From the NCBI GenBank assembly GCA_913055135.1, contig CAJXJV010000030.1, positions 1-10,550 on the forward strand: 10,550 nt of DNA. Reading direction: 5' to 3'. Positions 1 to 10,550 of this stretch are shown here, one piece after another; positions within the stretch are counted from its first letter, which is position 1; every line of letters begins with the position of its first letter. Under the pieces are notes generated by a model. The model had not been told where the DNA came from and ran no database searches. It saw only the letters and a list, made by a program, of their open reading frames with translations. The position numbers and the translations under genes are program-made. Source of the stretch: an uncultured Desulfurobacterium sp. Its GTDB lineage: Bacteria; Aquificota; Aquificia; Desulfurobacteriales; Desulfurobacteriaceae.

Positions 1-264
1 GAGAAAATTGGTTTCCTGATGAAACATCTCGCTTTTGAGTGGGTGAAGATATCAGAAGGTTCTTTCCTTGTCGGGAAGAACATGAAAGAACTGGAAATTC
101 GTAAAAAGTACGGAGTAATAATCGTAGCAATCATCAGGGACGAGAACGTTATCGTTTCACCCTCACCCCTTTTCCAGTTTCAGCCTGGTGACACAATCGT
201 AGTCGTTGGAACTCTCGATAACGTTAAGAAGTTCGTAAAACTGGTTGAGGGTAAGGAAGAGTAA
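1..264 (+). CDS. RCK_C (TrkA-C) regulatory subunit of cation:proton antiporter, 5' partial
   Basis: The frame is open from base 1, so the gene begins before the window; 87 residues are visible. The ATG at 19 is an internal Met rather than a convincing start. The visible part fits an RCK_C/TrkA-C domain: a beta-alpha-beta pattern with G-x-x-L-V-G-K-N-M-K-E-L, a strand VIIVAIIR, then P-S-P and the signature Q-P-G-D-T-I-V-V-V-G. Such domains bind a small ligand (a nucleotide or similar) and gate potassium or proton antiporters on the cytoplasmic side. The next gene is a CPA2 antiporter whose ATG directly follows this stop codon, the arrangement seen in KhtT-KhtU-like pairs. The exact family (a stand-alone subunit of about 160 residues or a longer TrkA protein) cannot be decided because the N-terminus is missing. 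Confidence 0.8.
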   Translation, partial: EKIGFLMKHLAFEWVKISEGSFLVGKNMKELEIRKKYGVIIVAIIRDENVIVSPSPLFQFQPGDTIVVVGTLDNVKKFVKLVEGKEE

Positions 265-1440
265 ATGGAACACTTCATTTCTATTTTCGCTGCATTTGTT
301 ACAACCTTAACGGCATCCTACGCCATTTCGGTAAAGCTGAAATTTCCGGTTATTCCCCTGTATATAATTGCCGGGATTCTCATTTCTCTCATTTTTCACA
401 TTCATGATATCCACATATTCGAAGTCCTTGGTGTTATTCTCCTTCTGTTCTACATTGGACTTGAGTTTTCAATTGCAGAACTCCAGAAAAATTTCAAATC
501 GATTATCTCAGTTGGTCTTGTTGATCTTATTCTCAACACGGTTCCGATTTTCTTCGTTGCAAAGCTTTTAGGATTCAACTCATTTACAGCCTTTGTTATC
601 TCTGTTATTCTCTATCCCAGCAGTTCTGCCATAGTTTCAAAACTCCTTATAGATTTACGGAAACTTGCAAATCCGGAAGTTGACACAGTCCTTGCCATTC
701 TGGTCTTTGAGGACATTGCTGCAGCTACACTCCTTGCGTTTCTTGTCAACTTCACAAGCGGAACAGTAACACCGGCTGAAACTTTACGGATATTTGTAAA
801 GATTGCCCTGTTTATCTCTATAGCCCTCATTGTCATCATGAACGCTGGAAAACTTGTTGACCTTGTCTTCCAGAAAATGGGTACCTCGACAGAATTTTTA
901 GTTCTATTTGTTGCAACTATCCTCTTCATAATCGTTGAGGCTACACTTGGCTTTGGACTGTCTGAATCAATTGGGGCATTTATAGCAGGTATGCTCTTTG
1001 CCGAAAGCAGTTACAAGGAAAATATTGAATCTGTTGTTATTCCTTATAGAGATTTATTTGGAGCTCTTTTCTTCCTGACATTTGGTCTCTCGATAGACCT
1101 CGAGAGTTTCTCATCCTCCATTATCCTTCCTCTCATAGTTCTTCTGATAATATCTTTCATCACAAAGATTTTGACAGGACTTGTATCCGTCAGGTTTTAC
1201 AACCTTGGGGCAAAGAGAGGGCTTTCCGCCGGACTGATGCTACTGCCAAGAGGTGAATTTTCCATTCTTGTAGCTGCAACAACGCCAAAACTTGTACCAC
1301 TTACAGCTGCTTATGTTCTGTCATCATCCATTCTGGGATCAATAGCAGTCAAAGAGTCTTCCAGAGTACTCAACCTCATCTTCAAAGAAAAACCCAAAAA
1401 GAAAAGCAAACTTACCAGATCTCAGCTTCTGGGGGATTAA
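265..1440 (+). CDS. CPA2-family cation:proton antiporter membrane subunit (KefB/KhtU-like)
   Basis: This 391-residue protein is almost entirely hydrophobic, with about twelve predicted membrane helices and a short basic cytoplasmic tail (K-E-K-P-K-K-K-S-K). CPA2 landmarks are visible in order: the early helix with I-G-L-E-F near residues 64-68, P-S-S-S-A-I near 118-123, the acidic pair in V-F-E-D-I-A-A near 147-153 (E149, D150), G-L-S-E-S-I-G-A-F-I-A-G near 231-242, the L-T-F-G-L-S-I-D motif near 271-278, and P-R-G-E-F near 328-332. It should exchange K+ or Na+ for H+ across the inner membrane. KefB/C carry Gln-Asp where this protein has Glu-Asp. It lacks its own nucleotide-binding domain, so the RCK_C subunit encoded just upstream (TAA then ATG, no spacer) is the likely gate. 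The ion it carries cannot be read from the sequence. Confidence 0.88.
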   Translation: MEHFISIFAAFVTTLTASYAISVKLKFPVIPLYIIAGILISLIFHIHDIHIFEVLGVILLLFYIGLEFSIAELQKNFKSIISVGLVDLILNTVPIFFVAKLLGFNSFTAFVISVILYPSSSAIVSKLLIDLRKLANPEVDTVLAILVFEDIAAATLLAFLVNFTSGTVTPAETLRIFVKIALFISIALIVIMNAGKLVDLVFQKMGTSTEFLVLFVATILFIIVEATLGFGLSESIGAFIAGMLFAESSYKENIESVVIPYRDLFGALFFLTFGLSIDLESFSSSIILPLIVLLIISFITKILTGLVSVRFYNLGAKRGLSAGLMLLPRGEFSILVAATTPKLVPLTAAYVLSSSILGSIAVKESSRVLNLIFKEKPKKKSKLTRSQLLGD

Positions 1441-2055
1441 ATGTTTATAACCTTCGAGGGCATTGAAGGATGTGGAAAGAGCACTCAAGCGAAACTCCTG
1501 TATGAGTGGCTCCTTGATAACGGAAAAGAGGTCATCCTGACCAGAGAACCGGGAGGCACTCCTGCTGCTGAGGAGATAAGAAATTTCATTTTAGAACCAA
1601 GAGAAGAATCTTTCCCGCCATTTTCCGAGCTTTGTCTCTACATGGCTGCAAGGGGATTCCACGTTGAAAATCTGATAAAACCCTCTCTGAGAGAGGGTAT
1701 CTGGGTTATATGCGACAGGTTTGTAGATTCAACTGTTGCATACCAGGGGTATGGAAGAGGTATTGATGTTAAACTCATAGAGAATTTGAACAAAGAGGCA
1801 ACAGGAGGACTTGAACCTGATCTTACATTTTTGATAGATGTTCCGGTTGAAGTAGGCTTTGAGAGAATTGAGAAGAGGAAACAGGACAGAATGGAAAAGG
1901 AAGAGATAAACTTTCACAAAAGAGTAAGAGAGGGATTTCTTGAAATTGCCAGAGCTAACCCTGAAAGGGTTGTGGTAGTGGATGGAAGAGGCAGTGCTGA
2001 TGAAGTTTTAAAAAATATCATAGAGATATTGAGGCAAAGAACAGATGCCTTTTAG
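1441..2055 (+). CDS. tmk: Thymidylate kinase
   Basis: At 204 residues this is the usual length for bacterial Tmk, the cytoplasmic enzyme that phosphorylates dTMP to dTDP with ATP for DNA synthesis. The P-loop is G-I-E-G-C-G-K-S-T at residues 7-15. It is followed by T-R-E-P-G-G-T (34-40, dTMP site), the C-D-R-F motif (91-94), Y-Q-G-Y-G-R-G (101-107) and a Lys/Arg-rich LID (about 145-161). The absence of an Arg in the P-loop and the basic LID suggest the E. coli-like type. The ATG follows the antiporter stop directly, with GGGGG just upstream as a possible ribosome site. The 3' end overlaps holB by 11 bases. A tmk-holB pairing is common in bacteria and links nucleotide supply with replication genes. 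Confidence 0.96.
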   Translation: MFITFEGIEGCGKSTQAKLLYEWLLDNGKEVILTREPGGTPAAEEIRNFILEPREESFPPFSELCLYMAARGFHVENLIKPSLREGIWVICDRFVDSTVAYQGYGRGIDVKLIENLNKEATGGLEPDLTFLIDVPVEVGFERIEKRKQDRMEKEEINFHKRVREGFLEIARANPERVVVVDGRGSADEVLKNIIEILRQRTDAF

Positions 2056-2875
2056 CAGTGTTGTTGGACACTCAAAACAGATTTCAATTCTGAAATCTCT
2101 GCTCTCTTCAAAGAGATTTCCATCCAGTTCTCTCTTTGTTGGTCCGGAAGGAGTCGGAAAAAAATTGATAGCCACAGAAGTCCTGAAACTGCTCACGGAG
2201 AATCCACTCAACGTCAGAATCTTAGGAGAGGAAAAACCGGGTACCATAGAGGAAATAAGAGAAGCTTCGGCCTGGCTCTTCACAAAACCTTCATCCGGGA
2301 AAGGGAAAGGGCTGATAATAGACAACGCCGATGAAATGAGAAGTGAAGCTGCAAATGCTCTTCTTAAAACCCTTGAAGAACCTCCAGATTATGGATTCAT
2401 AGTATTAATAGCAAAAAACGAAGAGGCTGTTCTACCGACTCTCAGATCAAGATGTAGAGTATTCAGGTTCGGAAAACTCAGCGATTCTAACATTGAATAC
2501 CTACTTGAAAAACTTGGACTAAAACCCGATAAAAGAGTAGTGAAACTATCAAATGGAAGCGTAGGAATGGCTGTAAGGCTTTCAGAAAGCCAGGTTCCAG
2601 AGCTTATAAAAGAGTTTATAAACCTCATGAAGTCAAAGGATAAGTTAAAGGGAATCATTTCATTCTCCTCAAACTTCTCAAAACTATCGAGGGAAGAAAC
2701 TCTCCTCTTTTTGAATGCTCTTGAAAACCTCCTATCGCAGAAGGACACAGTTTTAAGGTGGTTTGAAGCTATACAGAAGGGAAGAGAGTTTTTAAAGTTC
2801 TATGGAAAGCCCCAATCTGTTGTTGAATGGATTTTGCTGGAAGTGCTACTCAAAACTGAACGTGAATCCTTTTAA
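2045..2875 (+). CDS. holB: DNA polymerase III subunit delta' (clamp loader), short zinc-less form
   Basis: This 276-residue AAA+ protein fits the delta' subunit, which with DnaX and delta loads the beta clamp onto DNA. Visible motifs are a P-loop-like G-P-E-G-V-G-K-K (33-40, with Lys where Thr/Ser is usual), a Walker B-like L-I-I-D-N-A-D-E-M (90-98), the A-N-A-L-L-K-T-L-E-E-P-P segment (103-114) and the L-R-S-R-C arginine-finger/SRC motif (133-137). The cysteine zinc module usually found after the P-loop in delta' and DnaX is absent; residues 52-70 run straight from the P-loop helix into the G-T-I-E-E-I-R-E region. The protein is also shorter than the E. coli delta' (about 334). The start overlaps tmk by 11 bases. 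The SRC motif and the tmk neighbour favour HolB over DnaX. The end overlaps the convergent gene's 3' end by 26 bases. Confidence 0.9.
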   Translation: MPFSSVVGHSKQISILKSLLSSKRFPSSSLFVGPEGVGKKLIATEVLKLLTENPLNVRILGEEKPGTIEEIREASAWLFTKPSSGKGKGLIIDNADEMRSEAANALLKTLEEPPDYGFIVLIAKNEEAVLPTLRSRCRVFRFGKLSDSNIEYLLEKLGLKPDKRVVKLSNGSVGMAVRLSESQVPELIKEFINLMKSKDKLKGIISFSSNFSKLSREETLLFLNALENLLSQKDTVLRWFEAIQKGREFLKFYGKPQSVVEWILLEVLLKTERESF

Positions 2876-3490
2876 CCTTTTGTTTTCTTATAGCCTCAGG
2901 AATATCCTCAAGGAGTTCGTGATTCCTGATTTCATCAGGATCTTTTAATCCATTGAAATTAATTAAATAAAAGTTTATCCTATCTCCATAAATCCCAGAC
3001 TCGTCAAGAACAAGTCCACAAATGTAGAGCTTTCCTTTCGAAACAAGGTTTTCAAACTCTGGAATGGAAAGAAGATTATCTATTTGCGCATCTATGTTAT
3101 TTCCATCAGGGCAGCATTCAACTGCTTCTCATTTCCTTCGTAGAGAGGAAGGAGAATATCTATGTTGTTTTCATAAACCTTTCTGAGAAGTTTAAATTCA
3201 ACCTCTGCTGCCTGAAAACCAAGCTTTATAAATTCCTCAAGGTTTACTGCTGTTGTCCCTGTAATCGCTATAAGTGGAACCTTCAACGTCTTTACTGAAT
3301 AGTAAATAGAAGCAAGGTTTGGAAGAATCTGAGAAGCTGTATTTGAAACTATGCAACTCCCTGGAAGGAGCTGGGAAATTCTCCAGACCATAGATGAAGC
3401 ACAGACTATACAGGAATCATACCTCTCGGGTTTTTCACGGGATATACAATCCCTTATTAAGAGTTTCTCTATTACCTTTACAGCTTCCAT
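2850..3490 (-). pseudogene. Beta-carbonic-anhydrase-like gene, degenerate and apparently frameshifted
   Basis: Two frames together make one protein of about 213 residues. The first runs from the ATG at 3490 to a TAG at 3092 (132 codons). The second is open from 3128 to a TGA at 2850 and has no start codon of its own. The join needs a -1 shift somewhere between 3130 and 3092. Frame one has the beta-CA order: a C-A-S-S-M segment in place of C-x-D-S-R (residues 30-34), L-L-P-G, S-N-T-A-S, S-I-Y-Y-S-V-K-T-L-K-V-P, then I-T-G-T-T-A-V-N in place of G-H-x-x-C-G (76-83). Frame two has the typical C-terminus: N-N-I-D-A-Q-I-D-N-L, then S-K-G-K-L-Y-I-C-G. One zinc cysteine (C30) remains; the His and second Cys positions are Thr and Val, so CO2 hydration is unlikely. 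The start overlaps the previous stop as TAATG. Pseudogene, sequencing error and recoding all remain possible. Confidence 0.65.
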
Positions 3491-3972
3491 TAAACCACTC
3501 TTATCTCAACCAGATTTTGAGAGGTATCAAGTATAGCAAAAGTGGATTTCCCTGTAAGATATCCGCAGAGCTCCCCAGGGTTTACAATCTGACAACCATT
3601 TAAAACTCTTGTATCGATCTCATGGGTATGACCGTAGAGAACGTAATCGAAATCTCCAGATTTTGCCAAGGAATCAACAAAGAGAGGTTCATGCATGATT
3701 GCGAATCTTTCCCCATCAATTTCCCTGTAGATAGGCTGTTTAGCTATCAATCCTCCTGAAACTTTCAACAACCCTCCAACTTCCCCATCGTTGTTTCCAA
3801 AAACTCCAACAAAATCACATTTTAGCTTTGAAAGAAACAGCTTTACAGAAAAAGGAGAGACAAAATCTCCACAGTGAATAACAAGTTCTATATCCTCAGC
3901 GTTAACCATTTCTACAAATTTCTCTATTTTCTCAAGGTTATCATGGGAATCAGAAACCACTGCAATTTTCAT
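3490..3972 (-). CDS. YfcE/MJ0936-type metallophosphoesterase
   Basis: This 160-residue protein is the usual size for the small single-domain calcineurin-like phosphoesterases (YfcE family), cytoplasmic enzymes that hydrolyse phosphodiesters using two metal ions. All metal-site motifs are visible: S-D-S-H-D-N with D8 and H10, H-C-G-D with D36, G-N-N-D-G-E at 59-64, a lone His in M-H-E-P (H94), and Y-G-H-T-H at 113-117. An N-P-G-E segment follows near the C-terminus, typical of the family. The ATG overlaps the topA stop as ATGA, and its own TAA overlaps the next gene's ATG, so the three genes are translationally coupled. The natural substrate is unknown; family members act on model phosphodiesters in vitro. 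Confidence 0.9.
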   Translation of the reverse strand: MKIAVVSDSHDNLEKIEKFVEMVNAEDIELVIHCGDFVSPFSVKLFLSKLKCDFVGVFGNNDGEVGGLLKVSGGLIAKQPIYREIDGERFAIMHEPLFVDSLAKSGDFDYVLYGHTHEIDTRVLNGCQIVNPGELCGYLTGKSTFAILDTSQNLVEIRVV

Positions 3973-6068
3973 TTTCTGTCTCCGGAGGGTGGTTTATTTG
4001 AAATAAAATCACATTCGGGATACCTGCTGCAACCGTAAAACTTCTTTCCTTTCTTGCTTCTTCTTTCAACGATGTCACCCTCACCGCACTTAGGACACTT
4101 TCCGTAGGTAATTGGAGCAGTGTACTTACATTCCGGGTAGTTCGTACAGGCTATAAATTTACCATATCTTCCGCTCTTTATTACCAGATCACCACCACAC
4201 TCTGGACACTTCTCTCCGGTTTTTTCAGGTTCCTCCTTGAGACTTTCCTTATACTTGCATTCAGGATAGTTTGAACAGGCTATAAAGGTTCCATATCTGC
4301 CGTGGATTTTAAGAAGAGGAGCTCCACATTCAGGACACTCTCTACCAATCTCCTCCCCCCTGAGATTCTTCAGCTCCTTTTCAGCCCTTTCAAGCAGTCC
4401 TTTGAACTCTCCAAAGTAGAACTCCTTCAGTACTTCTCTCCACTCCTTTTTGCCTTCCTCTATCTTGTCCAGCTCCTCTTCCACACTCGCCGTAAACTTC
4501 ACATCAACAATCTTAGGAAAAAGCCTTTTCAGTATATCGTTAATAAACTCTCCAAGCTCTGTGGGCTTTAGTTTTTGCTTATCCTTTTCTACGTATCCTC
4601 TCTGAATGATGTTTGAAATTATCGTTGCGTAGGTCGATGGTCTTCCGACTCCTTCTTCTTCGAGTGCCTTAACAAGGGTTCCCTCGGTATATCTTGGAGG
4701 AGGCTCTGTAAAGTGCTGAACTCCTTTTATCTCTTCCGGTTCTACCTTATCTCCTTCGTTCAAATCGGGAAGGAGCTTTTCCTCAACTTCCACAGGATAA
4801 ACTTTTAGAAATCCTTCTTTTTTCAAAGTGCTTCCAGTAGCCCTAAATTTTAATCCGTTTCCCTCAATATCTGCAGAAACTGTATTAAATACTGCATCTT
4901 CCATTTGAGAGGCAACAAACCGTCTCCAGATGAGATCGTAGAGCCTGTACTGTTCAGGAGTCAGGTATTCCTTAACGCTCTCCGGGGTTCTGTAAACAGA
5001 AGTAGGTCTTATCGCTTCGTGGGCATCCTGAGCAGATTTTGGAGTTTTTGTCTCATAACTTCTCTTCGTTTTTGGTAGATACTCCGAACCTATCTCTTTC
5101 TTTATAAACTTTCTGACCTCTTTAACCGCCTCATCAGAAATCCTTGTGGAATCTGTTCTCATGTAGGTAATAAGACCAACCCTCTCGTTTCCAAGGTCGA
5201 TACCCTCGTAGAGCTGCTGGGCAATCTGCATGGTCAACTTTGCAGGAAATCCAAACCGCTTTGATGCTTCCTGCTGAAGAGTTGATGTAATGAATGGTGG
5301 ATAAGGTTTTCTCTTTCTTTCCTTCCTTTCAACTCTTGTAACTGTGAAAGGCACCCCTTTTGCCCTTTCAACTAACTCCTTGGCACTTTTTTCATCAGGT
5401 ATGTCAAACTTATCAAGTTTTTTTCCATCAACTGCAAAAAGCTTTGCAGGGAACTTAGAAGTTTCTTTTCTGAAAATTCCCTCAATTGTCCAGTACTCTT
5501 TTGGAACAAACTTCCTTATCTCCTCTTCTCTGTCACAGATAAGCCTCAGAGCAACAGACTGAACTCTACCGGCAGAGAGAGCCTTCTTAAATCTCTTTGA
5601 GAGTAACGGAGAAATTGTATAACCGACGATTCTGTCAAGAATTCTCCTTGCCTGCTGGGCATTAACCTTGTTTTCATCAATCTGGTCAGGATTTTTGATT
5701 GCTTCTTCTATGGCTTTTTTCGTAACTTCATGGAATCTTACCCTGTAAATGCCATTCTTCTTTATCCTTTTCAGAGCATTTGCAATGTGCCAGCTGATTG
5801 CCTCTCCTTCACGGTCGGGGTCTGTTGCAAGAAGAACTTCATTACTTTCTTTTGCAGCCTTTTTGAGCTCTCTAAGAATTTTGTCTTTTCCCTTTATTGT
5901 TACGTACTTTGGCTTGAAATTCTTCTCTATATCTACTCCAAACTCCTTCTCAGGAAGATCTATAACATGTCCCATGGAAGCTTTTACGATAAAGTCTTTC
6001 CCTAAATACCTCTGGATTGTCTTGGCTTTTGCTGGCGATTCAACTATGAGGAGTTTTTTCTTTCCCAT
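3969..6068 (-). CDS. topA: DNA topoisomerase I (type IA)
   Basis: This 699-residue enzyme relaxes negative supercoils by cutting and rejoining one strand. The TOPRIM domain starts the protein, with V-E-S-P-A-K-A (E10) and the metal site D-P-D-R-E (D83, D85, E87). The catalytic tyrosine is in L-I-T-Y-M-R-T-D-S-T at Y302, with the conserved arginine at 304. G-V-G-R-P-S-T-Y-A-T lies further on, before the end of the catalytic core. The C-terminus carries three four-cysteine zinc ribbons of the C-P-x-C-G ... C-S/T-x-Y-P-E-C type, which bind single-stranded DNA. The start is an ATG with AGAGGT a few bases upstream, and a sigma70-like promoter lies ahead. It is the first gene of a three-gene operon on this strand. 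Confidence 0.97.
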   Translation of the reverse strand: MGKKKLLIVESPAKAKTIQRYLGKDFIVKASMGHVIDLPEKEFGVDIEKNFKPKYVTIKGKDKILRELKKAAKESNEVLLATDPDREGEAISWHIANALKRIKKNGIYRVRFHEVTKKAIEEAIKNPDQIDENKVNAQQARRILDRIVGYTISPLLSKRFKKALSAGRVQSVALRLICDREEEIRKFVPKEYWTIEGIFRKETSKFPAKLFAVDGKKLDKFDIPDEKSAKELVERAKGVPFTVTRVERKERKRKPYPPFITSTLQQEASKRFGFPAKLTMQIAQQLYEGIDLGNERVGLITYMRTDSTRISDEAVKEVRKFIKKEIGSEYLPKTKRSYETKTPKSAQDAHEAIRPTSVYRTPESVKEYLTPEQYRLYDLIWRRFVASQMEDAVFNTVSADIEGNGLKFRATGSTLKKEGFLKVYPVEVEEKLLPDLNEGDKVEPEEIKGVQHFTEPPPRYTEGTLVKALEEEGVGRPSTYATIISNIIQRGYVEKDKQKLKPTELGEFINDILKRLFPKIVDVKFTASVEEELDKIEEGKKEWREVLKEFYFGEFKGLLERAEKELKNLRGEEIGRECPECGAPLLKIHGRYGTFIACSNYPECKYKESLKEEPEKTGEKCPECGGDLVIKSGRYGKFIACTNYPECKYTAPITYGKCPKCGEGDIVERRSKKGKKFYGCSRYPECDFISNKPPSGDRK

Positions 6069-6107
6069 CCAGACCTCTAAGTTTAGTTCAACTTTAGCGA
6101 ATAGAGT

Positions 6108-6136
6108 AATGTAACGAAAGAAAGAGAAGAAGTCAA
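6108..6136 (-). promoter_or_regulatory. Predicted sigma70-type promoter for topA operon
   Basis: On the minus strand TTGACT (6136-6131) and TACATT (6113-6108) are separated by 17 bases, a good match to -35 and -10 boxes. Transcription would begin near 6101, giving a leader of about 33 bases that contains AGAGGT before the topA ATG. It lies in the 92-base gap between the DUF1847 gene and topA. This suggests that topA has its own promoter rather than depending on read-through. Confidence 0.5.
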
Positions 6137-6160
6137 AAAATTTTCGTCAAAAACAGCTAC

Positions 6161-6730
6161 TTATATCAATTTTCTCCTGTAATAGTTACTGTAAAGAGCT
6201 CCAGCAGGGTTGTGGGCTAAAACTCTATCTTTAACAATCAGCGTAGTTACAGGTGCTCTTGAGTGCATCTGGAAAAGCATGTCGTGTCCAACGCAAAGAC
6301 CAACAATTATATTCATATCGGTTTCAACTTCGTTCAGAACCTCTGCCTGACCAACAGGATTACAGGAAGCCTCTAAGAACTCTGGTTTCATCTTTTCAAT
6401 GTTTAGCTCCGCTTTATCTACAGCCCCTACCTTGCAAACCACTGAGAAAACCTCAAACCCATTTGATTCAAGGATTTTCGCAAGAATTCTTGTCTCTTCA
6501 AAAAGACCAATACAAAAAGCTATGCCGATTTTTTTAAACCCCATCCTTTTTGCAAATTCAAGGAGCTCTTCAACCCTTGTCAGCTTGCAGTAGAACTCCC
6601 TTTCAATGTCTGAAGAAACCTCCAATAGCTTTCTCTCAAATTCGGGCAGACCCTTCAAAAGCTCTTTCAGATCCTTACACTCTTTTCCTTCTCTGTAACA
6701 ACCGGGCGAGTGGCATCTGTGACACTTCAA
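6161..6730 (-). CDS. DUF1847 family cysteine-rich protein, TTG start
   Basis: This 189-residue protein resembles the DUF1847 family of anaerobes, whose function is not established as far as I know. It opens with C-H-R-C-H-S-P-G-C and a further Cys at 18, a likely metal or Fe-S site. Further conserved-looking cysteine segments are G-I-A-F-C-I-G-L (C73), V-V-C-K-V-G-A-V (C99), A-S-C-N-P-V-G-Q-A-E (C123) and G-L-C-V-G-H-D (C146). The end has V-K-D-R-V-L-A-H-N-P. The start is a TTG at 6730-6728 overlapping the upstream TGA. A strong GAGGAGGAG Shine-Dalgarno, formed by the Glu codons at the end of the upstream gene, sits just ahead and fixes this start. It is co-transcribed with the NifX-like gene and divergent from the CooS-like gene, which hints at a metal or redox role, by position only. 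Confidence 0.85.
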   Translation of the reverse strand: MKCHRCHSPGCYREGKECKDLKELLKGLPEFERKLLEVSSDIEREFYCKLTRVEELLEFAKRMGFKKIGIAFCIGLFEETRILAKILESNGFEVFSVVCKVGAVDKAELNIEKMKPEFLEASCNPVGQAEVLNEVETDMNIIVGLCVGHDMLFQMHSRAPVTTLIVKDRVLAHNPAGALYSNYYRRKLI

Positions 6731-7098
6731 TGGTGCTCCTCCTCGTTGGGCTCAAGGAGTTCCTCAAGCTCCCCCTTCTTAAACCTCTCAACTGCATCAT
6801 CGAGAAATTTCACCTCAGGTGGAATCAGGTAAATCTTAACTCCTAAAACATTCCTTACTTTATCAAAGGAACCGGGACCCATCTCCTTTACAAGAACAGC
6901 ATCAACTCCTTTCTTTCCAAACATTTCAACGATGCGAATTCCTCTTCCCCTTTCAACGTGGAGCCCTGGATTTTTCACAATCTCAATATCCCCTGTGTTA
7001 GTATCGACAATCGCAAAGTGGTTTGACTTTCCAAAGTGGGCATTAACCAGTCTTCTTCCATGAACCTCAGTATCAAGTACTGGAACTGCAACTTTCAC
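6727..7098 (-). CDS. NifX/NifB-type (dinitrogenase FeMo-cofactor biosynthesis) domain protein, GTG start
   Basis: This 123-residue protein is a single domain of the NifX/NafY/NifB C-terminal type, an RNase H-like fold that in nitrogenase maturation carries Fe-Mo-S clusters. Visible signs are the M-K-V-A-V-P-V start, A-H-F-G-K-S-N-H-F-A-I-V-D (20-32), and the G-V-D-A-V-L-V-K-E-M-G-P-G region (64-76). It ends with E-E-E-H-H. The start is a GTG at 7098-7096 with GGAGGT five bases upstream. No nitrogenase genes are in the window, and stand-alone members are widespread in anaerobes, often near Fe-S handling proteins, so a cluster- or metal-carrying role is inferred rather than shown. The next gene overlaps by four bases (TTGA). 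The divergent CooS-like protein carries an unusual metal cluster, so a maturation role is possible. Confidence 0.85.
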   Translation of the reverse strand: MKVAVPVLDTEVHGRRLVNAHFGKSNHFAIVDTNTGDIEIVKNPGLHVERGRGIRIVEMFGKKGVDAVLVKEMGPGSFDKVRNVLGVKIYLIPPEVKFLDDAVERFKKGELEELLEPNEEEHH

Positions 7099-7166
7099 TT
7101 TTACCTCCAGACTTATATTTAATTGTTAAATTCCAAACAGCTTTGTATTCAAATATTGTCTTTGGT

Positions 7167-7180
7167 TTGATTTAAGTCAA
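7167..7180. promoter_or_regulatory. FNR/DNR-type operator TTGAT-TTAA-GTCAA
   Basis: The 14 bases match the FNR-family consensus TTGAT-N4-ATCAA at nine of ten defined positions. The centre (7173.5) lies 41.5 bases before a start near 7215 predicted from the -10 box, which is the class II activator position. The box sits in the 143-base divergent spacer, so it could also influence the NifX-like gene, but no convincing minus-strand promoter was found at a matching distance. The regulator encoded at 9598-10257 has the E-x-x-S-R recognition helix expected to read TTGAT half-sites. Confidence 0.65.
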
Positions 7181-7202
7181 GGTAATTCTAAGAAATTGCC
7201 TG

Positions 7203-7235
7203 TATTCTTAAAACTGAATAAACTCAATCAGGAGG
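7203..7235 (+). promoter_or_regulatory. -10 box and ribosome site of the CooS-like gene
   Basis: TATTCT at 7203-7208 is a fair -10 hexamer (four of six) located exactly where an activator centred at -41.5 would need it. There is no good TTGACA -35, as expected for an activated promoter. The inferred transcript starts near 7215 and carries GGAGG at 7231-7235, ending six bases before the ATG at 7242. This supports that ATG as the start. Confidence 0.5.
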
Positions 7236-7241
7236 AACAGG

Positions 7242-9206
7242 ATGTTCGGATTCTTTAAGAAAAATGGAAACGAAAACCAAAAGGAACAACAAGGTAACTT
7301 CTGCGTGGAGTCTGACCTCTCCACAGGTGTTGGTCTCAAAATGCCAAGTTTCCATGAGAGTGTTAACTACATGTACCAAAAAGTAAAGGAAGCTCAGCTC
7401 TCAAATGTTGCCGACAGATTCGAGGCAATGGAAAAAGTCAGATGTAAATTCTGTAAAGAGGGCGTTTCATGTACTCTTTGTTCAATGGGTCCATGTAGAA
7501 TCACACCTCAAACTCCAAGGGGTGTTTGTGGTATCGATGCCCATGGTATCGTAATGAGGAACCTCCTCATCAAGGCTAATATGGGACTTGCAGCTTATAC
7601 ATACCACTGTAGAGAAGCTGCTCTAACACTCCTTGAAACTGCAAAAGGAAACACAATCTATGAAATCAAAGACCCTTCAAAGATTGATCTCCTGGCAGAG
7701 GTTCTCGGCATTGACACATCACTGCCGCTCAACGAAAAAGCAAAGTTAGTTGCTGAAGGAGTTCTGAAAAGTCTTTCTGAAAATAACTACTCAGTCTTTG
7801 TTGAAAAACTTGCTCCAGAGAGCAGAAAAGATGTCTTCAGAAAGTTAGGAATAATGCCAAAAGGTCCAATGAACGAACTTGTTGACTCCGTTTCAAGATC
7901 AATGACAAACATCGATGGTGACTACATCACTCTTGCCCTTGCAGCCCTCAGAAACGGCGTAGCTTCAGCATTTGGAGCCCTTGTCCCTCTTGAAATCATT
8001 CAGGATGCTCTCTACGGAACACCTACTCCACACGAGTGTGAAGTTGACTTTGGAATTCTCGATCCAGACTACGTAAACATCCTTCCAAACGGTCACGAGC
8101 CATTTGTTGGAATGGCACTTGTTGAACTGGCTAAAGATCCTGAAATTCAGAAGATGGCAAGAGAAGCCGGTGCAAAAGGAGTAAAGATTGTAGGTTCTAT
8201 TGAAACCGGTCAGGAAATGATGGCAAGACTTGAGTGTGATGATGTTTTTGCAGGTCTTACATCAAACTGGATATCCCTGGAATACTTCCTTTCCACAGGT
8301 GCAGTTGACGTTCTCGCAATGGACATGAACTGTTCACTTGCAAACCTCAAGGAGTATGCAGATAAGTACAACTTCAAGCTAATTGCCGTTTCTAACATCA
8401 TTGGTGTTCCAGGAGCAATGAGACTTGAGTACAAGCCTGGAAAAGAGAGAGAAATTGCAAAAGAAATCATCAAAATAGCAATTGAGAACTTCAAGGAGAG
8501 AAAGAACAAGCCTACAGCAGATGTGGCAAAATTCAAACAGAAGGCTATCGTTGGATTCTCTGCTGAAGCTATTATTAACGCTCTTGGTGGAAGCCTCAAT
8601 CCTCTCCTCGACGTTATTAAGAATGGAGATATTAAAGGAGTTGTAGCTCTTGTTAACTGTACTTCTCTGGCTAACGGTCCACAGGACAGCACGACTGTTC
8701 AGATTGCAAAAGAGCTAATTAAGAGAGATATCCTCGTAATCGGCGCTGGTTGTGGAAACGCAGGTCTCCAGAAGGCTGGACTTGAAACACTCGAAGCTGT
8801 AGATAAATATGCAGGTCCAAAGCTTGCAGGAGTATGTAAAGCCCTTGGAATCCCACCAGTTCTTTCTTTCGGTACCTGTACTGATACAGGAAGAATAATC
8901 ATGACAGTTATAGCTATTGCAAATGCTCTTGGTGCTGACCCATCTCAGCTTCCCGTAGCTGTTACTGCTCCTGAATACATGGAGCAAAAAGCTGTAATCG
9001 ATGGATTCTCAGCAGTTGCAATGGGACTTTACACCCATGTTTCTCCAGTTCCACCTGTCACAGGATCCGATAAAGTTGTCAAACTTCTCACAGAAGACGT
9101 AGAAGGACTTACAGGTGGCAAAATCGCAGTTGGAGATGATCCAGTAGAAGCTGCAAATGGAATCGAGGAGCATATCATGAAGAAGAGAGAGTTACTTGGA
9201 ATATAA
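7242..9206 (+). CDS. cooS: CooS-like protein with hybrid-cluster-type active site (CooS-V-like, probably not a CO dehydrogenase)
   Basis: This 654-residue protein follows the monofunctional Ni,Fe-CODH scaffold from end to end. D-cluster cysteines are C68 and C71 (C-x2-C), and B-cluster cysteines are C77, C80, C85 and C96. C-cluster ligand positions (CODH-II numbers in brackets) are H285 (261), C364 (333), C473 (446), C504 (476), C546 (526) and catalytic K583 (563). The exception is E321 where CODH has Cys295, in S-I-E-T-G-Q-E. The proton-relay His93/99/102 are Y119, E125 and L128; only H122 (96) remains. Around K583 the motif is M-E-Q-K-A-V, with Glu at the place used by Hcp hybrid clusters. 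The N-terminus carries about 25 extra residues including C21. The known variant CooS-V, lacking a canonical cysteine, holds an Fe/S/O cluster, does not oxidise CO and slowly turns over hydroxylamine. No cooC, cooF or acsB is visible. The next gene is the NO-stress gene ygbA. Scaffold certain; activity inferred. Confidence 0.93.
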   Translation: MFGFFKKNGNENQKEQQGNFCVESDLSTGVGLKMPSFHESVNYMYQKVKEAQLSNVADRFEAMEKVRCKFCKEGVSCTLCSMGPCRITPQTPRGVCGIDAHGIVMRNLLIKANMGLAAYTYHCREAALTLLETAKGNTIYEIKDPSKIDLLAEVLGIDTSLPLNEKAKLVAEGVLKSLSENNYSVFVEKLAPESRKDVFRKLGIMPKGPMNELVDSVSRSMTNIDGDYITLALAALRNGVASAFGALVPLEIIQDALYGTPTPHECEVDFGILDPDYVNILPNGHEPFVGMALVELAKDPEIQKMAREAGAKGVKIVGSIETGQEMMARLECDDVFAGLTSNWISLEYFLSTGAVDVLAMDMNCSLANLKEYADKYNFKLIAVSNIIGVPGAMRLEYKPGKEREIAKEIIKIAIENFKERKNKPTADVAKFKQKAIVGFSAEAIINALGGSLNPLLDVIKNGDIKGVVALVNCTSLANGPQDSTTVQIAKELIKRDILVIGAGCGNAGLQKAGLETLEAVDKYAGPKLAGVCKALGIPPVLSFGTCTDTGRIIMTVIAIANALGADPSQLPVAVTAPEYMEQKAVIDGFSAVAMGLYTHVSPVPPVTGSDKVVKLLTEDVEGLTGGKIAVGDDPVEAANGIEEHIMKKRELLGI

Positions 9207-9244
9207 TTTTCCACCCTCAACGCTTCTTCATCTCCTCCCTCCCA

Positions 9245-9264
9245 CCCCTCCCTCTCGGGAGGGG
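9245..9264 (+). promoter_or_regulatory. GC-rich hairpin covering the ygbA ribosome site
   Basis: CCCCTCCC (9245-9252), a TCTC loop and GGGAGGGG (9257-9264) form a perfect eight-base-pair stem in the 67-base gap between the CooS-like stop and ygbA. The 3' arm is the only strong Shine-Dalgarno ahead of the ATG at 9274, so the stem would hide it. What follows, ATCTTTAATATG, is a poor U-tract, so it is a weak candidate for a terminator. It could tune ygbA translation, attenuate transcription, protect the mRNA, or be one copy of a dispersed palindrome. A pyrimidine-rich run (9207-9256) precedes it. Confidence 0.6.
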
Positions 9265-9273
9265 ATCTTTAAT

Positions 9274-9609
9274 ATGGAGCATGCGATGTCCATCGAAAGA
9301 GAAAAACGAACAATAGAAAAGATGATTAAAATATACTGTCGGGCAAAGCACGGCTCTCCAAAAGGAACCCTCTGTCCTGAATGCCAGGAACTCCTCAACT
9401 ACGTCTTCAAAAGACTGGATCTTTGCCCCTTCAAAGAAGAGAAACCCACATGTAAAAAGTGTACAGTTCACTGCTACCAACCGGAAAAGAGAAAAAAAAT
9501 AAAAGAAGTAATGAGATTTAGCGGTCCAAGATTGCTTTTCTATGACCCTTTTGGTTGGCTCATCCACGAGATAAGAGAGAAATTTGTAAGACTTCAATCA
9601 CTCAGATAA
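9274..9609 (+). CDS. ygbA: YgbA family protein (nitrous oxide-stimulated promoter family, NO stress)
   Basis: The 111-residue product matches the small cysteine-rich YgbA family: E-K-R-T-I-E near the start, Y-C-R, L-C-P-E-C-Q-E-L-L at 33-41, R-L-D-L-C-P-F at 47-53, K-P-T-C-K-K-C at 57-63, H-C-Y-Q-P at 66-70 and V-M-R-F-S-G-P-R-L at 79-87. Cysteines at 22, 34, 37, 51, 60, 63 and 67 suggest a metal or Fe-S site. In enterobacteria the gene is NsrR-controlled and induced by nitric oxide, and it helps growth recovery after nitrosative stress; the mechanism is unclear. The ATG at 9274 has GGAGGGG nine bases upstream. An ATG at 9286 with GGAG six bases upstream is an equally reasonable start, and the family homology begins after it. 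It probably shares the CooS-like gene's transcript. Its end overlaps the convergent regulator by 12 bases. Confidence 0.9.
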   Translation: MEHAMSIEREKRTIEKMIKIYCRAKHGSPKGTLCPECQELLNYVFKRLDLCPFKEEKPTCKKCTVHCYQPEKRKKIKEVMRFSGPRLLFYDPFGWLIHEIREKFVRLQSLR

Positions 9610-10257
9610 CTCTAAAAGAGCATTTTTGTTTTTTATCCTGATTAGATTGCCGTTCTTCTCGATAATTCCCATAGATTTAAGCTTTGAAAGCATTCGTGAA
9701 ACAGTCTCTTTCGTTAGCCCAAGTTCCATCGCTGCAATATTCGTGCTGAATTTAAATTCATCGTTATCCACTTCCTTACTGTTTCTCAGAATGTAAGAAG
9801 AAACTTTTGAAAGCGCATCCTTAAGAGAAAGACTCTCTATCAAACCTGTCAAATAGATTAGCCTTTGCGCCATGACAGCAAGAAGTCTCATTCCTATCTC
9901 AGGATCTCTTTTCATCAGTTCCAGAAATTCCATCCTTGGAATAAAAAGAATTTCACTGTCCTCTATGGTCTCTGCCCAGGCAGGAAAGTTTTCTCCTGTA
10001 AAGCTTGCAGCTTCTCCAAAGAACGTTGGTCTGGAGAAAATTCTGATTATCTGCTCTTTCCCCCTACCGGATTTGTAGATCTTTACCTTACCTTTTTTCA
10101 AAATGTAAAAACCCTCTGCTTTCTGAGAGGGATTGAAAATTACCGTTCCTTTGGTGTAACTCCTGACAATTGATATCTCCTTAATTCTGGTGAGTTGTTC
10201 TTCAGAAAGCTCTGAAAGAAGTGGTATCTGCCTCAAGAACCTAATCAAATCTTCCAT
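9598..10257 (-). CDS. Crp/Fnr-family transcriptional regulator (HcpR/DNR-like, cysteine-free)
   Basis: This 219-residue protein has a cyclic-nucleotide-type sensor domain (about 10-125), a long dimer helix (about 120-145) and a winged helix-turn-helix (about 168-208). The sensor has F-F-G-E-A-A-S-F-T-G-E-N-F-P-A-W-A-E (79-96). CRP's cAMP-binding Arg-Ser pair is not kept there (F-P-A instead), so cAMP is unlikely to be the ligand. The protein contains no cysteine at all, so it cannot carry an FNR-type Fe-S cluster. The recognition helix L-T-K-E-T-V-S-R-M-L (181-190) keeps the E-x-x-S-R used by FNR to read TTGAT. This pattern suits DNR/HcpR-like NO or nitrite sensors, some of which use haem, but the ligand here is unknown. 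It is convergent with ygbA, with 12 bases of overlap. It is the obvious candidate to bind the box at 7167-7180. Confidence 0.88.
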   Translation of the reverse strand: MEDLIRFLRQIPLLSELSEEQLTRIKEISIVRSYTKGTVIFNPSQKAEGFYILKKGKVKIYKSGRGKEQIIRIFSRPTFFGEAASFTGENFPAWAETIEDSEILFIPRMEFLELMKRDPEIGMRLLAVMAQRLIYLTGLIESLSLKDALSKVSSYILRNSKEVDNDEFKFSTNIAAMELGLTKETVSRMLSKLKSMGIIEKNGNLIRIKNKNALLELSE

Positions 10258-10277
10258 CCTTAAATCCCCTCTGTCGA

Positions 10278-10305
10278 ATTATACAGAAACCTACCTTCAA
10301 TCAAA
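10278..10305 (-). promoter_or_regulatory. Predicted promoter of the Crp/Fnr-family regulator
   Basis: On the minus strand a perfect TATAAT (10283-10278) is preceded by TTTGAT (10305-10300) at 16 bases, or TTGATT at 15. Transcription would start near 10271, and GAGGGG or AAGG precedes the ATG at 10257. The -35 region overlaps a short inverted repeat ATCAA-N8-TTGAT (10300-10317), a possible autoregulatory site, though not in the canonical FNR-box orientation or spacing. Confidence 0.5.
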
Positions 10306-10356
10306 GAAATTGTTGATGGTTTGAAAGTGATAAAATCCAGATGGAGGAGGATTATT

Positions 10357-10550
10357 ATGAGTAACTGCTTCAACTACCACATTAAAACGGCTCACACCTT
10401 TGAGAGTGTAAGGAAATCCCACTACCTTGACTGGTCAAACTATCCCAACCCGTTTAAGGTTTATAAAGGCGTTAAAAAGTTTCCCCTTCTCTCCTTTGAT
10501 GGACACACTCAGGAGACACTTGATGTTCTCTACAGGATTTGTAGTGAAGG
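10357..10550 (+). CDS. SagB/ThcOx-type nitroreductase-family protein, 3' partial
   Basis: Sixty-four codons are visible before the window ends. The ATG at 10357 has GGAGGAGG about six bases upstream, a strong ribosome site. The N-terminus contains N-Y-H-I-K-T-A-H, Y-L-D-W-S-N-Y-P-N-P-F-K-V-Y-K and a K-F-P-L-L sequence. This resembles the opening of SagB/ThcOx-type flavin-dependent dehydrogenases, which usually begin with Y-H-x-x-T-x-H and L-D-W-x-N-x-P-x-P-F-K-x-Y before the nitroreductase fold. The FMN-binding part lies outside the window, so the reaction cannot be stated. It is divergent from the regulator, with about 100 bases between them. Confidence 0.7.
   Translation, partial: MSNCFNYHIKTAHTFESVRKSHYLDWSNYPNPFKVYKGVKKFPLLSFDGHTQETLDVLYRICSE

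Follow-up and report, generated by a model that had tools for sequence, protein, structure and literature searches.

The 10,550-nucleotide stretch of contig CAJXJV010000030.1 from an uncultured Desulfurobacterium sp. (assembly GCA_913055135.1, positions 1 to 10,550; hereafter the window) carries a gene labelled as the catalytic subunit of an anaerobic carbon monoxide dehydrogenase (CODH), but its product is, by alignment and tree, an ordinary CooS-V (clade D, structural group D-1) of the prismane/CODH family. By analogy with characterised CooS-V, its active site is very probably a reversibly restructuring [4Fe-3S]/[4Fe-S-O] hybrid cluster without a Ni,Fe C-cluster, and the protein would then neither oxidise CO nor reduce CO2. 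The best reading, which we regard as reasonably probable, is a hybrid-cluster enzyme that does not act on CO and belongs to a nitrosative-stress cassette of regulator, operator box, cooS-V and ygbA.

The window protein is a CooS-V with glutamate at the Cys295 position

The product of the open reading frame matches the TIGR01702 anaerobic CODH profile with 798 bits (cut-off 478), yet it has a glutamate (Glu321, codon GAA, within VGSIETGQE) at the position of Cys295 of the CODH-II C-cluster, and it groups with CooS-V. The original prediction, made from the sequence alone, had pointed out this swap, listed the remaining C-cluster ligands and warned that an automated CODH annotation is probably wrong, and our analyses agree with it on all three points. 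In an alignment with CooS-V of Carboxydothermus hydrogenoformans (7b7q, 53% identity), Glu321 falls at Glu295, and H285, N363, C364, C473, C504, C546, E581 and K583 as well as the four B-cluster cysteines all align one-to-one. The C-cluster ligand set of functional Ni,Fe-CODHs (one His and five Cys) is incomplete because of the Glu at Cys295, and Glu581 and Lys583, the residue pair of CooS-V and group D-1, are both present.

With canonical Ni,Fe-CODHs (CODH-II, Rhodospirillum rubrum CooS and L016 of Desulfurobacterium thermolithotrophum) the window protein has in common the fold, the His and four of the five C-cluster cysteines, and the B-cluster, whereas it has Glu instead of Cys295 and Glu instead of Thr at CooS-V position 556. 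The two canonical CODHs from the Desulfurobacteriaceae (L015 and L016) have Cys-Cys where the window protein has Glu321, and both have the Thr at the position of Glu581. Tyr119 of the window protein stands where L016 has a His, which we take to be the acid-base histidine. The protein is also distant in sequence from the hybrid cluster protein Hcp (51.6 bits to TIGR01703, cut-off 360.8), from which it differs by its CODH fold and D-cluster. Conservation offers no candidate for a cysteine that might substitute for Cys295: of the 15 cysteines in the window protein, only the cluster ligands and C532 are the same in all family rows, and C532 is also found in CooS-V and canonical CODH, while C21, C123, C266 and C332 vary among the family rows and are missing from CooS-V.

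We expanded the analysis to 22 Desulfurobacteriaceae genomes, Thermovibrio ammonificans included (16/22 at least 90% complete; the genome of the window is 89.6% complete). All 22 contain a CooS-V type protein with Glu at position 295 (two by fragments of contig-broken genes), which is usually the sole prismane-family gene found. Glu295 is present in all of the best 120 of 3337 database homologues (118 with all ten checked columns, 2 partial) and is invariant across a hand-picked alignment of 32 proteins; taken together, these counts exclude chance or sequencing error. In the phylogenetic tree, all 34 Glu295 rows form a single clade (Shimodaira-Hasegawa-like approximate likelihood ratio test (SH-aLRT) 100) with the window protein inside, supporting the CooS-V likeness proposed originally. 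The cysteine at position 41 of the type III D-cluster (Cys71 in the window protein) is found in 22/22 family rows covering that column, near-duplicates included.

Two related groups were seen alongside this clade. A CODH-like group from 14 genomes (L090-L103; Aquificota groups f3 and f4, the latter including Persephonella) keeps Cys295 (GSLCTGQE), with Asp replacing Lys at CooS-V position 558 and Asn replacing Glu556, and makes up a clade of its own (SH-aLRT 100), which connects to the Glu295 clade with a support of 94. In 35 of the 118 proteins first listed (e.g. P0270, P0273, P0349 and P0351), some of them on long branches, position 295 is Asp and both Glu556 and Lys558 are present.

The swap itself is already published as the hallmark of group D-1 and is not a new deviation. 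It was described as a synapomorphy of the CooS-V subclade (Jeoung 2022, PMC9311411), it defines structural group D-1, in which nine hybrid-cluster residues are common to Hcp (Inoue 2019), and a 2026 marine survey left such sequences out of its CODH counts for this reason. In line with the original prediction, C. hydrogenoformans CooS-V has an Fe/S/O hybrid cluster from which Ni is absent and shows neither CO nor CO2 activity, and Glu268 of Hcp occupies the equivalent ligand place (Jeoung 2022, PMC9311411). The same study found both CooS-V and the C295E variant of CODH-II inactive with CO, and observed that Cys521 forms a persulfide in the oxidised CooS-V structure. The exact role of Glu295 is disputed, as it was reported to ligate Fe3 in the oxidised and Fe4 in the reduced state (Jeoung 2022, PMC9311411), but was described as not ligated to Fe in a 2023 paper (PMC10502027).

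A conserved cassette of cooS-V, ygbA, a Crp/Fnr regulator and an operator box

A 2026 survey of genomic context (PMC13056359) saw no clear pattern among the neighbours of clade D genes, but the family genomes do have one. The window protein and C. hydrogenoformans CooS-V (7B7Q) share the fold, the ligand set with Glu295 and Glu556, the CX2C D-cluster and the clade, whereas the window gene sits in a cassette with YgbA, a DNR/HcpR-like regulator and a conserved operator. A PF11756 (YgbA) gene is found once per genome, on the same strand and adjoining the 3' end of cooS-V, in 22/22 genomes (the G009 match was read through one TGA), and a Crp/Fnr regulator lies beyond ygbA in 20/20 testable neighbourhoods (the window and 19 regions; G014 and G016 could not be judged). 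The recognition helix LGLTxETVSR, residues of which we mapped to CRP positions 180 and 181, is kept in all 20 regulators, and 18 of these lack any Cys, which makes a Cys-ligated Fe-S sensor unlikely. Among the best 120 of 272 matches, the more distant relatives of the regulator are 36 to 45% identical (some possibly from the same family), and three carry the automatic name dissimilatory nitrate respiration regulator (DNR).

Upstream of cooS-V, TTGATTTAAGTCAA is the sole exact match to TTGAYN4RTCAA in the window and one of 4 in 1.68 Mb. An exact box is located 71 to 100 bases before the assigned cooS-V start in 20/22 family genomes; in G009 and G012 it lies approximately 420 and 380 bases upstream, by eye seemingly ahead of the gene preceding cooS-V, and G009 has an additional box within cooS-V. 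In 18/20 promoters a T-A-n-n-n-T motif lies at offset 36 to 41 from the box, where the -10 is placed in class II activation; over the rest of the range 24 to 59, no single offset has it in more than 2 of the 20. When anchored on the box, the 20 promoters average only 41% pairwise identity over the preceding 60 bases and 34% over the spacer that follows; these values leave out the box halves, which are identical throughout because the search pattern demands it. The genomes are related and the promoter counts therefore not independent, although the flanks have diverged. The box resembles the published motifs for HcpR1 (wyTTGACnnnnGTCAArw) and DNR (TTGATnnnnATCAA), for which the recognised bases have been tied to regulator residues 180 and 181 (Rodionov 2005, PMC1274295). 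Features in common with HcpR1/DNR regulons are a TTGACnnnnGTCAA-type operator and a Crp/Fnr gene without the Fe-S Cys set, before a gene for a hybrid-cluster enzyme, with the difference that the enzyme is CooS-V and not Hcp; the likeness of the regulator is judged from its sequence.

In the mechanism that we propose, CooS-V would be the reductase part of this small conserved cassette, with the DNR/HcpR-like regulator presumably binding the box and activating cooS-V from the class II promoter. The trigger would most likely be NO or nitrite from nitrate ammonification; T. ammonificans is a nitrate ammonifier, in which the nitrite-to-ammonium step is not experimentally settled. The substrate that CooS-V then reduces might be a small nitrogen oxide or a related oxidant, and YgbA would be the co-induced partner of the enzyme. 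Nitric oxide (NO) is our best guess for the signal of the regulator, because of the HcpR1/DNR-like box and helix, the DNR-named relatives, and YgbA being a target of the NO-sensitive NsrR in Escherichia coli (personal communication reported in PMC1274295). Whether CooS-V in the Desulfurobacteriaceae goes further and fills the slot of Hcp, serving a nitrosative-stress response of the DNR/HcpR type as its terminal reductase and having YgbA for an obligate partner, we consider evenly balanced.

The features of the window are collected in Table 1. A GC-rich hairpin between cooS-V and ygbA (window 9245-9264) could be a terminator, a processing site or a repeat, with folding of 9207-9280 giving -21.2 kcal/mol (z -2.68). 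The NifX-like and DUF1847 genes on the other side of the box (window 6161-7098) are possibly a metal-cluster accessory pair. Elsewhere, exact boxes were seen upstream of a Cys-rich DUF3795 protein (L042:90-475, G000:C143) and of a second NifX-like protein (L064:1094-1514, G008).

Table 1. Coordinates of the cooS-V gene, its cluster residues, the promoter elements and the neighbouring genes in the window
Feature	Position	Strand	Remarks
DUF1847 protein	6161..6730	-	Adjoins NifX-like gene; in 10/20 fetched regions
NifX/NifB-like small protein (PF02579)	6727..7098	-	Divergent from cooS-V; nearby in 20/20 fetched regions
TTGATTTAAGTCAA, FNR/DNR/HcpR1-type palindrome	7167..7180	.	Upstream of cooS-V; candidate operator, motif from PMC1274295
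TATTCT, candidate -10	7203..7208	+	Exact class II spacing; box centre at -41.5 if start is ~7215
AGGAGG, ribosome-binding site	7230..7235	+	Upstream of cooS-V gene
cooS-V type gene	7242..9206	+	654 aa; profile label anaerobic CODH catalytic subunit (TIGR01702), but CooS-V type
Cys68 and Cys71, CX2C D-cluster motif	7443..7454	+	CooS-V Cys38, Cys41
B-cluster cysteines C77, C80, C85, C96	7470..7529	+	Alignment to CooS-V
His285	8094..8096	+	CooS-V His259 (alignment)
Glu321	8202..8204	+	CODH-II C-cluster Cys295 position; CooS-V Glu295
Cys364	8331..8333	+	CooS-V Cys338 (alignment)
Cys473	8658..8660	+	CooS-V Cys449 (alignment)
Cys504	8751..8753	+	CooS-V Cys480 (alignment)
Cys546	8877..8879	+	CooS-V Cys521 (alignment)
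Glu581	8982..8984	+	CooS-V Glu556, Hcp Glu494; second glutamate typical of hybrid clusters
ygbA gene (PF11756 YgbA_NO)	9274..9609	+	3' neighbour of cooS-V; start codon chosen by us
Crp/Fnr-family regulator, DNR/HcpR-like	9598..10257	-	No Cys, no His; recognition helix LGLTKETVSR

Comparison with other genomes and evidence weighing against a nitrosative-stress function

A match to the prismane family was found in 48/136 genomes of the phylum, and Hcp and CooS-V were never found together in the 44 examined (G080, G081, G115 and G131 were left out). Four genomes of Aquificota group f5 contain a CooS-V with the Glu; all four have a TTGAN6TCAA sequence within 200 bases upstream, compared with an overall count (including these) of 12 across 77.5 kb of f5 loci, and 3/4 encode proteins related to the regulator (40 to 44% identical).

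One f5 genome (G133) has a true Hcp (474 bits, L106:1490-3660) and no CooS-V match. Its hcp gene is preceded by an exact TTGACTGCGGTCAA box (HcpR1-type) and followed by a convergent Crp/Fnr gene (28% identical). This is the layout of the family cassette with Hcp as the enzyme, apart from a different -10 spacing. In Desulfovibrio desulfuricans 27774, the cooS gene Ddes_0382 is listed as NO-induced in RNA-seq data (log2 2.01, PMC5701242).

Several observations count against a nitrosative-stress cassette, starting with the enzyme itself: with C. hydrogenoformans CooS-V, hydroxylamine reduction was very slow (kcat/KM 20 M-1 s-1) and NO reduction did not exceed background (Jeoung 2022, PMC9311411), and by analogy the substrate may be other than NO or hydroxylamine. 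Other NO defences may also exist, as ODP-domain (flavodiiron-type or related) proteins are present in 22/22 family genomes and could be the main NO reductases. With regard to the cassette, ygbA and the regulator are not adjacent to cooS-V in the four f5 genomes, of which only one has the exact box, and the hcp promoter of G133 has no -10 at class II spacing. Outside the phylum, the exact box was absent at 5/5 Glu-bearing loci, and neither ygbA nor a Crp gene was seen beside these five by eye. There is also no genome-wide enrichment of the exact box in the genome of the window (4 sites vs 8 for a reversed control), with counts of 7 vs 10 in G008 and 6 vs 1 in G018, and with one mismatch allowed the window contains 2 sites where 2.2 are expected. 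Co-transcription of cooS-V and ygbA is not certain given the intervening hairpin, and no obvious match to Met68, which is used for heme by HcpR of Porphyromonas gingivalis, was identified in the window regulator, which has neither His nor Cys.

Alternative functions

A hybrid-cluster enzyme for oxygen, peroxide or general redox stress, under an oxidant- or redox-sensing Crp/Fnr regulator and not an NO sensor, is the alternative that survives best, although we consider it rather unlikely. The exchange at Cys41 gives a [2Fe-2S] D-cluster, which has been linked to oxygen tolerance in the CODH of Desulfovibrio vulgaris (PMC9311411), the hybrid cluster operates at low potential, and the signal of the regulator is not fixed by a sequence that has neither His nor Cys in the window copy. 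Set against this are the NO link of YgbA, the fit of the box to the HcpR1 and the NO-responsive DNR motifs, and the near-absence of Cys from the family regulators, which argues against an Fe-S FNR sensor.

CooS-V has alternatively been proposed as a redox-sensing or regulatory protein in the 2026 study on clade D (PMC13056359), and not a catabolic enzyme, and the very low hydroxylamine turnover of the C. hydrogenoformans protein would suit such a role. However, no family row that covers the cluster ligands has lost any of them, and the CooS-V structure has a redox-gated substrate channel that suits a reductase (PMC9311411), so that we regard a sensor as improbable.

Finally, a functional CODH supplying CO to the reductive acetyl-CoA pathway is highly improbable. 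In its favour, the protein has been seen in the proteome of T. ammonificans, and its Ni,Fe ligands have been described as conserved (PMC5441870). Against it, the T. ammonificans protein has Glu at 295, neither CooS-V nor CODH-II C295E is active with CO, no C1 genes are among the conserved neighbours, and the profiles of two further pathway enzymes (see below) are unmatched in the 22 family genomes.

Family-wide gene content and the carbon-fixation proposal

The type V CODH of T. ammonificans was reported to keep the residues coordinating the NiFeS cluster, and a function in a reductive acetyl-CoA pathway, reducing CO2 to CO, was put forward as a hypothesis (Giovannelli 2017, PMC5441870). In T. 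ammonificans the sequence at this place is GSIETGQE (protein P0005, which lies within the L033 translation), and this Glu295, together with the inactivity of CooS-V and C295E with CO, makes such a role unlikely. A canonical CODH with Cys295 was found in 2/22 family genomes (L016, from contig G008:C1, and L015, from G014), or 1/16 of those at least 90% complete, and was not found in the other 20. Acetyl-CoA synthase (ACS, PF03598) was matched in none of the 22 family genomes, including both with a canonical CODH, with methanogen ACS as the only positive control (PF03598 matched solely two methanogens among 14 control genomes, and a bacterial ACS control was lacking). Formyltetrahydrofolate synthetase (FTHFS, PF01268) was likewise matched in 0/22; both enzymes would be expected in a genome with the reductive acetyl-CoA pathway. 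There was also no match to Hcp in the 22 family genomes, using a prismane profile that also detects Hcp (e.g. in G135).

The family-wide picture of gene distribution and cassette was not found in the literature searched, and the parts worth following are the cassette and the conflict with the carbon-fixation claim. The published statement that the T. ammonificans enzyme keeps its Ni,Fe ligands and may feed CO to ancestral carbon fixation (PMC5441870) is undercut. If CooS-V does take the place of Hcp, then 20/22 genomes would have no recognisable CO-producing enzyme, the case for an ancestral reductive acetyl-CoA pathway in the Aquificota would lose its enzyme, and the cassette would give the orphan CooS-V group the physiological setting that it has lacked. 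With a gene that is universal in the family (22/22) and bound to a single regulator, operator and partner, the role of CooS-V becomes directly testable.
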